Shown here in pieces: positions 8,351 through 11,635 of a DNA stretch of 64,000 nucleotides. The position numbers and the translations under genes were made by a program. The DNA comes from Bryobacteraceae bacterium. GTDB taxonomy: Bacteria; Acidobacteriota; Terriglobia; Bryobacterales; Bryobacteraceae. Under the pieces are notes generated by a model. It worked only from the letters and a program-made list of their open reading frames with translations, had not been told where the DNA came from and ran no database searches. The stretch lies in NCBI GenBank assembly GCA_026002855.1, contig BPGD01000001.1:2798001-2862000 (forward strand), given 5' to 3'. The stretch's first letter is position 1, and each line of letters begins with the position of its first letter.

Positions 8351-9052
8351 TCATGCAGCCGTGTTTGTGCTGATGTCCCGCACAATCCTCGCCGCGGCTT
8401 CGCGCGGATCGGCGGCCCGCGTGACCTCCCGGCCCACAACCAGATAATCCGCCCCCGCGGCCAGCGCTTCGGCCGGCGTGGCCACGCGCTTCTGGTCATG
8501 TGCGGCCGCGCCGGCGCTGCGGACGCCCGGCGTCACCAGCAGCCGCTCCGGGCCGGCCAGCGCCCGCATCCGCCGCGCCTCCAGGGGGGAGCAGACGAAC
8601 CCCTGCGCCCCGGCCTCCAGTCCACGGGCTGCGAGCCACAGCGCGTGTTCGCCGGGTGTTCGTCCGGCAATCCCCAGGTCCTCCAAATCGCCCTGGTCGA
8701 AGCTGGTAAGCACCGTGACGGCCAGGATCTTTGTTTCCGATCCCCGCACCCCCTCCACGGCCGCGCGGATCACCTGCGGAACGCAATGCACCGTGAGAAG
8801 CGATACGCCCAGCCCGGCAGCGCGCGCGGCGGCGCGGCGCACCGTCTCGCCGATGTCATACATCTTCAGGTCGAGGAAGACACGCTTGCCCGCTGCCCGA
8901 AGGTCGCGCACGATGGCAGGCCCCTCGGCAGTGAACAGCTCAAGTCCGACCTTGTAGAAGGACACGAGTTCCCCACACTGCTCCACCAGGCGCAAGGCGG
9001 CGGCGCGGTCCTCGACGTCGAGGGCGACAATCAGGGGATTGCGCTGGATCAT
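8351..9052 (-). CDS. pyrF: orotidine 5'-phosphate decarboxylase
   Basis: The 233-residue product decarboxylates OMP to UMP in the last step of de novo pyrimidine synthesis. It is a compact TIM barrel. The catalytic tetrad segment reads LDLKMYDI, giving D61, K63 and D66, and the phosphate-binding arginine appears near the end in VVGREVT. Length matches the bacterial family. Its ATG overlaps the selD stop as ATGA (9049-9052), indicating translational coupling with selD, an unusual partner. About 210 bases without a gene separate it from TonB receptor 1 downstream. Confidence 0.95.
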   Translation of the reverse strand: MIQRNPLIVALDVEDRAAALRLVEQCGELVSFYKVGLELFTAEGPAIVRDLRAAGKRVFLDLKMYDIGETVRRAAARAAGLGVSLLTVHCVPQVIRAAVEGVRGSETKILAVTVLTSFDQGDLEDLGIAGRTPGEHALWLAARGLEAGAQGFVCSPLEARRMRALAGPERLLVTPGVRSAGAAAHDQKRVATPAEALAAGADYLVVGREVTRAADPREAAARIVRDISTNTAA

Positions 9053-10029
9053 ATCACTCTCAGTGGTTTTTCGCGACGTTCGACCACGCGGCCGATCACA
9101 AGGCCCTGGGCCTTTTCCGGCGCCATGGACAGAAGCAGCCCGCCTGAGGTCTGCGGGTCATAGAGCAATGCCTCCACTACCATGGGAAGTTCGCGGCAGA
9201 ATTCGACGGCGCAGGAGATGAACTCACGATTGTTGTTCAGGCCGCCGGGGATGGCGCCCTGGCGGGCGTAGTCGAGCGCGCCGGGAAGGAATTCGAGGCG
9301 GTCCGTTTCGATTTCAAGCGTCACGCCGGAGGCCAGCGCCATTTCGCGGGCGTGCCCTAGCAGGCCGAAGCCGGTGATGTCCGTGCAGCCGTGGGGCTCG
9401 CCCTCGAAGCGGTTCAGACGGCACATGGAAGCCACCGCCGCCTCGACATGCGCCGGGTCGGCGATGCCGCGCTTGAGCGCCGTTCCGATGACGCCGGTGC
9501 CCAGGGGTTTGGTGAGCACGAGCACGTCGCCCGGGCGCGCGCCGGCGTTGGTCCAGATCCTGTCGGGATGCACGATGCCGGTCACCGCGTAGCCGAACTT
9601 CATCTCGTCATCGCTCACGGAGTGGCCGCCGAGGACGGCGCAGCCCGCCTCAATCATCGCCTCGGCGCCGCCCCGGAGGATCTCTTCCAGATCCTCGAGG
9701 TCGCCCTTGGCAGGGTAGGCCAGGATGGAGAGCGCGGTGAGCGGGCGCGCGCCCATGGCGTAGATATCGGACAGGGCGTTGGCGGCGGCGATGCGGCCAA
9801 AGGTGAAAGGGTCATCGACAATGGGCGTGAAGAAATCCACGGTCTGCACGAGGGCGCACTCCGGGCTCAGCCGGTAGACGCCTGCGTCGTCGCAGGTGTC
9901 GAAACCGACCAGCACGTTCGGATCAGAAAGGCGCGGGATGCGCGGCAGAACCGTGTCCAAAACCTTTGGACTCAGCTTGGACGCTCAACCCGCGGCCTTG
10001 ACATGAGCGGTAAGCTTTTTCACTGACAC
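9049..10029 (-). CDS. selD: selenide, water dikinase (selenophosphate synthetase), selenocysteine-containing; TGA at 9985-9987 read as Sec
   Basis: SelD makes selenophosphate from selenide and ATP, the selenium donor for selenocysteine tRNA. The region from TTG 9960 onward is clearly SelD (TTDFF-type VDFFTPIVDDPFTFGRIAA, GGHSVSDDEMKFGYAVTG, GCTDITGFGLLGHA) but lacks the catalytic N-terminus. Reading upstream through an in-frame TGA (9985-9987) restores it: LTAHVKAAG-U-ASKLSPKVL, with the catalytic residue followed three positions later by Lys, as in the family's Cys/Sec-x-x-Lys motif. Starts are GTG 10027-10029 (an AGGAGG lies 12 bases upstream) or GTG 10021-10023; an in-frame TAA at 10033-10035 blocks anything longer. 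With the first start the product is 326 residues with Sec15 and Lys18. It overlaps pyrF by ATGA. Confidence 0.88.
9955..9982 (-). promoter_or_regulatory. candidate bacterial SECIS stem-loop downstream of the selD TGA
   Basis: Starting two bases after the in-frame TGA, the mRNA can pair GUCCAAG (9982-9976) with UUUGGAC (9961-9955), a 7-pair stem with one G-U. Two further inner pairs would leave an 8-9 base apical loop beginning with G and containing GU. Bacterial SECIS elements sit immediately downstream of the UGA and have G/U in the loop. The fit is plausible but not proven; the loop is rather close to the UGA. Confidence 0.4.
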
Positions 10030-10056
10030 CGCTTACACGCGCCTCCTTTCGTGCTG

Positions 10057-10062
10057 TATGAT
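10057..10062 (+). promoter_or_regulatory. -10 element placed for a leaderless arabinofuranosidase mRNA
   Basis: TATGAT ends 7 bases before ATG 10070-10072, so a start site 7 bases downstream would coincide with the initiation codon. A weak -35 (CTTACA, 10032-10037) is 19 bases upstream. No Shine-Dalgarno sequence precedes the ATG, which supports leaderless initiation. Confidence 0.4.
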
Positions 10063-10069
10063 GACGCCC

Positions 10070-11635
10070 ATGAACCGCCGCACGTTCGTTTCCGCAACGG
10101 CCGCGGCCCTGCTGGCGCCGCGCTCCGGCCGCGCGGCCGAAGGCTCGGCCACGGTGCTCCTGAAAGAACAGATTGGCACAATCAGCCCGCTCGTGCATGG
10201 CCACTTCGTCGAACACCTGGGCGGCGTGGTCTATGACGGCATCTGGGTCGGCGAAAAGTCGAAGATCCCGAACATTGCCGGCATCCGCAAGGCGCTCATT
10301 GAAGACCTGCGCCGCATCCGCGCGCCGCTGTTCCGCTGGCCTGGCGGCTGCTTCGCCGACAGCTACGACTGGCGCGACGGCGTGGGTCCGCGCGAAAAGC
10401 GCCCGAAGCGGCTCAATTTCTGGGCCGGCTCGGAGATGCTGCGCCGGCTGGACAGCCATCCGGCGAAATACGAACCCAACGAATTCGGCACCAACGAATT
10501 CATGCGCTTCGTGCAGGAGGTGGGCGCAAAGCCGTACCTGGCCGCCAACGTGCGCGGCATGACGGCGCGCGAGTTCAACGACTGGGTGGACTACTGCAAC
10601 GCGCCGCTCGGCACAACCACCTGGAGCGAGGTCCGCGGCACCCCGCCCTTCAACGTGGAATTCTGGGGCATCGGCAATGAAAGCTGGGGCTGCGGGGGCG
10701 ACTTCCGGCCCGAAGAGTACGCCGTCGAGTTCCGCCGCTTCACCTCCTGGGTGCCGGGCTTTGGCGTGCCGCTGAAATTCATCCCTTCGGGGCCCAACGG
10801 CGGCGACCTGAACTGGACGCGCGGTTTCTTTGAAGCGCTGGTGCGCAAGAATCCCGGCTTGCTGCGCCGCGTCTGGGGCTGGGCGCTGCACTACTATTGC
10901 GGAACCGCGGGCGGTCCGGTGGAGTTCAACACGGACGAATATTACGAGCTGCTGGGCCGTGCGGTGAGGATGGAACAGCTCATCCGCGACCACTGGACCG
11001 TGATGGGCGAATACGACCGCGAGCACCGCGTGAAGTTCGCCATCGACGAATGGGGCGCCTGGCACAAGGCCGGCAGCGAAGTGGCGCCGCACCACCTTTT
11101 CGGCCAGATCGGCACCATGCGCGATGCGATGGTGGCCGGGCTGACGCTCGACATCTTCCACCGCCATGCCGACAAGGTGGCCATGACCTGCGTGGCCCAG
11201 CTCATCAACTGCATCCACTCGCTCTTCATCGCTCACGAAGACAGGATGCTGCGCACGCCGAATTACCACGTGTTCGATCTTTACAGGGAGCATCAGGAAG
11301 GGATGGCCGTGCGCGCCGTCTTCGCCGCACCGTCGGCGCCGAAGGCGCCGCGCCTGGATGGCTCGGCCTCCCTGCACGAAAAGGACAGGAAACTGGTGTT
11401 GACCTGCACACACGCCGACGCGGCCGAACCGCTGGCGGTGGAGGTGCGGCTGGAGGGCGCAGCCGCGCGGGCGGCGCGCGGGCGCGTGTTGTCCGGCAGG
11501 CCGCAGGACCACAACACGTTCGCCGAGCCGGAGCGCGTCAGGCCGCGCGAGCTGGCCGTGGCGGTCCGCAACGGGCGGCTTGTGTTCGAGCTGCCGCCGT
11601 GCGCCGTGGCTTCGATCCAGGTGGAGCTGGGCTGA
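10070..11635 (+). CDS. GH51 family alpha-L-arabinofuranosidase, exported
   Basis: The 521-residue product removes terminal alpha-L-arabinofuranose from plant polysaccharides such as arabinoxylan or arabinan. The N-terminus MNRRTFVSATAAALLA looks like a short Tat-type signal. The (beta/alpha)8 domain contains FRWPGGCFADSYDWRDGVGP. The acid/base is in FWGIGNESWG (N203, E204) and the nucleophile in KFAIDEWGAW (E327), followed by a C-terminal beta domain. Longer starts at 10058 and 10061 exist, but ATG 10070 gives the signal sequence and agrees with the -10 element. It is divergent from selD with about 40 bases between them. The family is clear; the exact glycan is not. Confidence 0.9.
   Translation: MNRRTFVSATAAALLAPRSGRAAEGSATVLLKEQIGTISPLVHGHFVEHLGGVVYDGIWVGEKSKIPNIAGIRKALIEDLRRIRAPLFRWPGGCFADSYDWRDGVGPREKRPKRLNFWAGSEMLRRLDSHPAKYEPNEFGTNEFMRFVQEVGAKPYLAANVRGMTAREFNDWVDYCNAPLGTTTWSEVRGTPPFNVEFWGIGNESWGCGGDFRPEEYAVEFRRFTSWVPGFGVPLKFIPSGPNGGDLNWTRGFFEALVRKNPGLLRRVWGWALHYYCGTAGGPVEFNTDEYYELLGRAVRMEQLIRDHWTVMGEYDREHRVKFAIDEWGAWHKAGSEVAPHHLFGQIGTMRDAMVAGLTLDIFHRHADKVAMTCVAQLINCIHSLFIAHEDRMLRTPNYHVFDLYREHQEGMAVRAVFAAPSAPKAPRLDGSASLHEKDRKLVLTCTHADAAEPLAVEVRLEGAAARAARGRVLSGRPQDHNTFAEPERVRPRELAVAVRNGRLVFELPPCAVASIQVELG

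Follow-up and report, generated by a model that had tools for sequence, protein, structure and literature searches.

The gene at positions 9049–10029 of the window, the 64,000-nucleotide stretch of DNA analysed here, most probably encodes an ordinary bacterial selenoprotein form of selenophosphate synthetase (SelD), in which selenocysteine (Sec) would be placed at the active site from an in-frame UGA. We put the probability of this reading at about 97%. The UGA, its conservation, a hairpin directly downstream of it and the genes of the Sec machinery are all seen in the DNA itself. The features of the gene and its start are as follows.

9049–10029, minus strand: selD, encoding a selenophosphate synthetase (selenide, water dikinase) of 326 residues, Sec15 among them; GTG 10029–10027 is the start and TGA 9051–9049 the stop; assigned from TIGR00476 and a comparison of starts.
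9985–9987, minus strand: in-frame TGA, codon 15, interpreted as selenocysteine; assigned from alignment with the N-terminal cysteine of PDB entries 3u0o and 2yye and from codon counts over 108 loci.
10042–10049, minus strand: Shine–Dalgarno-like AAAGGAGG, 12 nt before GTG 10029; assigned from the sequence, with a purine-rich AGGAG run in four congeners too.

Scanned from codon 2, the SelD protein matches TIGR00476 with 362.5 bits (cut-off 125) and covers positions 1–310 of the 311 in the profile; elsewhere in the genome the only selD-type match reaches 27.4 bits, with 31% identity. The conventional open reading frame runs from TTG 9960 to 9049 on the minus strand and encodes 303 residues. As the sequence-only reading had pointed out, a gene called from this TTG misses the catalytic residue; 23 residues are lost with it, and reading the TGA as Sec mends the gene model. 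The frame then extends upstream through TGA 9987–9985 until it is closed by TAA 10035–10033, and from GTG 10029 it begins VSVKKLTAHVKAAG-U-ASKLSPKVL, with the valine read as methionine.

There are two candidate starts on this strand, GTG 10029–10027 and GTG 10023–10021; both had been named beforehand by their last bases, 10027 and 10021, together with the closing TAA, and all three codons are present. GTG-TCA is found at 10029 in our genome and in all four congeners, and the codon at 10023 is GTG in none of the four. Outside the genus, the codon matching 10029 is ATG or GTG followed by serine in four of ten loci (two of them identical in sequence), and each of the remaining six offers a possible start no more than four codons away from this position. 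From these comparisons, GTG 10029 is the better candidate for the selD start.

A search of PDB sequences aligned Sec15 with the N-terminal cysteine of both 3u0o (E-value 4.6e-77) and 2yye (E-value 2.2e-53), a residue which we take to be catalytic. The Cys/Sec-x-x-Lys motif near the N-terminus of SelD has a catalytic role, and it is present here as U15-A-S-K18, with the lysine three residues on in all three sequences. The upstream reading LTAHVKAAG-U-ASKLSPKVL proposed from the DNA alone is therefore borne out by alignment with solved SelD structures. For the codon at this position we assembled 110 SelD loci, consisting of the best 30 of the 35 strong matches in our genome and its relatives (below) and the top 80 from a scan of named genomes that gave at least 590 matches. 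All but two of these (L101 and L109, which do not reach the position) could be counted, our own included. The codon is TGA in 89, TGC in 17 and TGT in two of the 108 loci, with no other codon found; some loci come from the same organism, and the set holds 103 distinct 90-nt stretches (84 TGA and 19 Cys). Among our genome and those of 60 relatives, 35 of 61 have a SelD match with E < 1e-100, of which 30 contain one TGA and five are free of stops. The TGA is kept in our genome and in all four congeners, and the protein frame preceding it is conserved among the loci as LTAHVKAAG or a sequence near it.

Directly downstream of the UGA, within the interval 9940–9990 in which a SECIS element had been suspected, we found a SECIS-like hairpin that is conserved with the TGA.

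9955–9971, minus strand: predicted apical hairpin of a bacterial SECIS, GUCCAAA-GGU-UUUGGAC; assigned from the fold and from pairing across loci.

Bacterial SECIS elements follow rules on a G in the loop and on the distance from the UGA. In this hairpin 13 nt separate the UGA from the stem and 20 nt separate it from the loop, which starts with G. Folded as a single sequence it has only a mild advantage in stability over its shuffles (z of -1.72, with 9 of 200 shuffles as good; in a second fold z of -1.26, with 21 of 200), so it is the comparison across loci that counts. This comparison used loci L019–L098 without L096, which are relatives or Acidobacteriota-named except for L094 ('uncultured bacterium', placed in the tree among other phyla), and comprised 67 TGA loci (59 distinct sequences) and 12 Cys loci. 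In the 59 TGA sequences pairs 1–4 are formed in every case, pairs 5 and 6 in 58 each and pair 7 in 40. The first six pairs occur together in 58 of the 59, compared with one of the 12 Cys sequences. Changes on both sides of the stem are seen at pair 6 (A-U in 43, G-C in 14) and at pair 7 (A-U in 23, C-G in 11). Overall, 94.9% of hairpin cells are paired in the TGA sequences and 53.6% in the Cys sequences, the latter being close to the mean of their own shuffles (53.7%). Column shuffles of the TGA set (n = 1000) averaged 89.3% and never exceeded 92.3%, although this control is weak because the lower stem is nearly invariant, and relatedness is uncontrolled in it. Sliding the 3' side of the hairpin by one to three positions reduced pairing in the TGA set to 15.5–59.6%. 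Nine codons on from the UGA, leucine is encoded by TTG or CTG in all 59 TGA sequences and in three of the 12 Cys sequences; in the register used here, six of the 59 have no G at loop positions 1–2. Beyond the Acidobacteriota range, and in this same register alone, the 22 TGA loci (which include L110, acidobacterial by title) are 77.3% paired with the first six pairs in ten of them, and the seven Cys loci are 49.0% paired with the first six pairs in none. By these comparisons, the predicted hairpin at 9971–9955 behaves as a bacterial SECIS that is kept with UGA and has mostly decayed with Cys.

The genome, a single contig of 4,437,915 bases with a completeness of 100, contains matches to selA (494.6 bits, cut-off 267.9) and selB (356.1 bits, cut-off 242.25) and a tRNA-Sec gene, selC (72.8 bits, gathering score 47), which ARAGORN reports as tRNA-SeC with anticodon tca (UCA). 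A second RF01852 hit over the cut-off is a tRNA-Ser according to ARAGORN. The sequence-only reading had predicted all three genes and had taken their absence as grounds against a selenoprotein; with all three found, that objection does not apply. By coordinates they lie far from selD and from one another, no adjacent selenoprotein gene stood out when the neighbourhoods of selC, selA and selB were inspected by eye, and within the window itself an Rfam scan gave no match and ARAGORN no tRNA.

Two other readings of the TGA were weighed against selenocysteine. If the codon truly ended translation, or were a sequencing error, a functional protein without the active-site loop might start at TTG 9960, or the gene might be decaying, and it is true that the downstream 303-residue frame is open on its own. 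Against this stand the TGA in our genome, in all four congeners and in 89 of the 108 loci, cysteine as its sole replacement, the conserved protein frame before it and the codons after it that keep the hairpin. The earlier caution that related strains might carry a Cys codon here, pointing to an error in the assembly, does not apply to the congeners; a TGA shared by them and by most loci, with TGC or TGT in the others, excludes a sequencing error, and we regard the whole account as extremely improbable. Alternatively, the UGA could be read as another amino acid, tryptophan or cysteine, by near-cognate suppression. No protein evidence speaks directly against this, but the genome has Sec machinery with a UCA tRNA-Sec, and the hairpin, which accompanies UGA, has mostly gone from the Cys genes. 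Furthermore, the terminator codon of selD in the 67 TGA loci of the L019–L098 range is TGA in 53, TAA in six and TAG in five, with three off the contig. Since selD ends in TGA here as well, UGA is evidently a normal stop that is not generally reassigned, and only the first of the two is recoded; near-cognate reading is thus very improbable. In our view, the conserved TGA/Cys position, the machinery genes and the hairpin are most consistent with the proposal that SelD is itself a selenoprotein through TGA 9985–9987.

Among relatives of the same family, five genomes (G006, G012, G018, G024 and G034) have a SelD with TGC or TGT at this position. These genes resemble ours in being 61.9–67.8% identical (tblastn) and in having a pyrF match next to them on the same strand in all five, and differ in the Cys codon that replaces TGA and in a hairpin that has mostly decayed. 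ARAGORN finds tRNA-Sec in each of the five, which rules out, for the genomes tested, that Cys-SelD arose because the Sec machinery was lost, and selA is over the cut-off in four, the exception being G034, which is listed at 10% contamination. A TGA lies within a formate dehydrogenase match in G012, G018 and G034 and within an AhpC-TSA match in G012 and G034; among the matches listed, G006 and G024 have none in any Fdh-alpha or AhpC-TSA match. The relatives therefore form a clear comparative set, in which Cys genes with mostly decayed SECIS elements occur in genomes that retain tRNA-Sec. On a quick tree (position 15 masked, SH-aLRT as the only support measure, 37 of its 101 inner branches drawn open) at least 12 changes between Sec and Cys are needed over the 108 rows and at least nine within the L019–L098 range, a count that does not give their direction.

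More widely, selA is over the cut-off in 32 of the 35 genomes with a SelD match at E < 1e-100. The exceptions are G034, G010 and G021, the last two of which are fragmented drafts: G010 has selA in two pieces and no tRNA-Sec, and in G021, where SelD has the TGA, selA is not over the cut-off and the best tRNA-Sec hit is a tRNA-Ser. The reverse pattern was also noted. SelD is not over the cut-off in G015 and G058, which have selA over the cut-off and tRNA-Sec, nor in G007 and G025, which have selA over the cut-off. These genomes are draft assemblies with 360 to 610 contigs each, and a gap is the likely cause of the missing SelD; were the absence in G015 and G058 true, these would have Sec machinery without SelD. 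G028 (completeness 99) lacks a selA match as well as a SelD over the cut-off, and its top tRNA-Sec hit is a tRNA-Ser; this is the pattern to be expected had the whole Sec trait been lost.

What is known of these families suggests how the gene would be expressed, with Sec insertion, SelB binding and enzyme activity all expected by analogy. A ribosome starting at GTG 10029 would reach the UGA at codon 15, where SelB, attached to the predicted SECIS at 9971–9955, would bring in Sec-tRNA-Sec, which SelA would produce from Ser-tRNA-Sec with selenophosphate. Sec would thus occupy the position of the Cys in E. coli SelD. The resulting enzyme would make selenophosphate from selenide and ATP, and this would feed the synthesis of SelD itself and of at least two predicted UGA peroxiredoxins.

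1104165–1104539 of the genome: AhpC-TSA peroxiredoxin-like gene (L141/L142 pair); FFPAAFTGG-U-TKEM with in-frame TGA.
81632–81988 of the genome: AhpC-TSA peroxiredoxin-like gene (L141/L142 pair); FYPADNSPG-U-TEQL with in-frame TGA.

In both genes the position of the UGA fits what we take to be the peroxidatic cysteine motif. UGA counterparts of the FFPAAFTGG gene are found in G001 and G004, and one of the FYPADNSPG gene in G001. The search for selenoproteins covered Fdh-alpha and AhpC-TSA in 12 genomes; in our genome two of the 12 AhpC-TSA matches listed, of 20, contain a TGA. The expectation of further UGA-containing genes has thus been realized: the genome appears to have at least two besides selD, both peroxiredoxins, which rules out SelD as its only selenoprotein. 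Formate dehydrogenase was rejected as a partner selenoprotein, as none of the 13 Fdh-alpha profile matches in our genome has an internal stop; a TGA-bearing Fdh-alpha match occurs in G005, G012, G018 and G034. Selenouridine was likewise rejected as an outlet for selenophosphate. The selenouridine synthase profile (SelU/MnmH, TIGR03167) has no match in our genome and none over the cut-off in any of the 61 genomes, and among controls it was positive in seven of 14 genomes, including E. coli, with one further genome over the cut-off. The organism is therefore a selenocysteine user without a detected selenouridine pathway.

Compared with known enzymes, this SelD shares its family, the position of Sec, a SECIS directly downstream and dependence on SelA, SelB and SelC with bacterial Sec-SelD/SPS2 (PDB entries 2yye, 2zod and 2zau, with Cys in the crystal and, presumably, Sec as the native residue), and differs from it only in sequence divergence and lineage, relatives being titled Bryobacterales, Solibacter and so on. 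The Cys-SelD of PDB entry 3u0o, which we take to be the E. coli protein, belongs to the same family and has the same active-site position, as indicated by the E-value given above, but has Cys for Sec and does not need a SECIS.

Sec-SelD has long been known as a common selenoprotein family (PMC1794560, PMC4561486, PMC13188914). PMC1794560 names SelD and FdhA as the bacterial selenoproteins with the widest distribution, and in it two thirds of Sec-to-Cys conversions fall in these two families, some with a remnant SECIS. PMC4561486 gives 19% of SelD genes in reference prokaryotes as having Sec, always at the same position, with a bacterial SECIS in Sec-SelD. Zhang et al. (PMC1794560) describe the Acidobacteria then sequenced as being without the selenouridine trait and count four selenoproteins of three families in the phylum; PMC12013277 records an Acidobacteriota genome in which three known selenoprotein genes occur. 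Sec-SelD, switching between Sec and Cys, and acidobacterial selenoproteins without selenouridine have thus already been published (PMC1794560, PMC4561486). Our genome, with its putative Sec-SelD, Fdh matches without UGA, UGA peroxiredoxins and no selenouridine synthase match, fits the picture of Zhang et al. Among the literature matches listed no title concerned SelD of Acidobacteriota, which is not to deny that one exists. The assignment of a Sec-SelD here appears correct and is well supported, and its kind is already known from many other bacteria.

The selD leader contains a further element, found between the Shine–Dalgarno run and the start.

10033–10038, minus strand: GTG-TAA, a start codon followed at once by a stop, in the selD frame.

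The order in our genome and four congeners (L020–L023) is Shine–Dalgarno run, NTG, TAA, GCG, GTG start and TCA. The NTG, nine bases before the GTG start, is GTG, GTG, TTG, ATG and ATG in the five, and a 14-base block, TGTAAGCGGTGTCA, is identical in all of them and found in exactly those five among 167 loci. The pattern AGGAGG-N3-DTG-TAA, built after seeing the site, occurs once in the window, in this leader, and in none of 100 shuffles. None of the ten loci from outside the genus has the pair at this position, L025 having CTG-TAA further upstream, and with a mean identity of 93% in the aligned region among the five species the conservation is partly plain relatedness. SelD would need Sec that only its own product can supply, and we note as a speculative and rather unlikely idea that a conserved start–stop mini-ORF might retain ribosomes or make them re-initiate, and thereby throttle this self-feeding loop.

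Downstream, selD is followed by a gene whose ATG overlaps its stop codon (ATGA).

8351–9052, minus strand: pyrF, orotidine 5'-phosphate decarboxylase; PRK00230, 256.9 bits, cut-off 193.

Among the 30 loci L019–L048, 25 likewise have a pyrF match after selD. Upstream, a divergent gene with an alpha-L-arabinofuranosidase C-terminal domain (PF06964) lies at 10058–11635 on the plus strand, and the approximately 30 to 40 bases between it and selD leave little room for two separate promoters; a scan of 9800–10300 for promoters and terminators found nothing.

A possibly different form of the gene was noted in 16 genomes of the same order, family f3 (G038, G040–G052, G055 and G056). Their SelD homologues are free of stops, are 38–43% identical and sit in open frames of 749–832 residues, which suggests a fused SelD.
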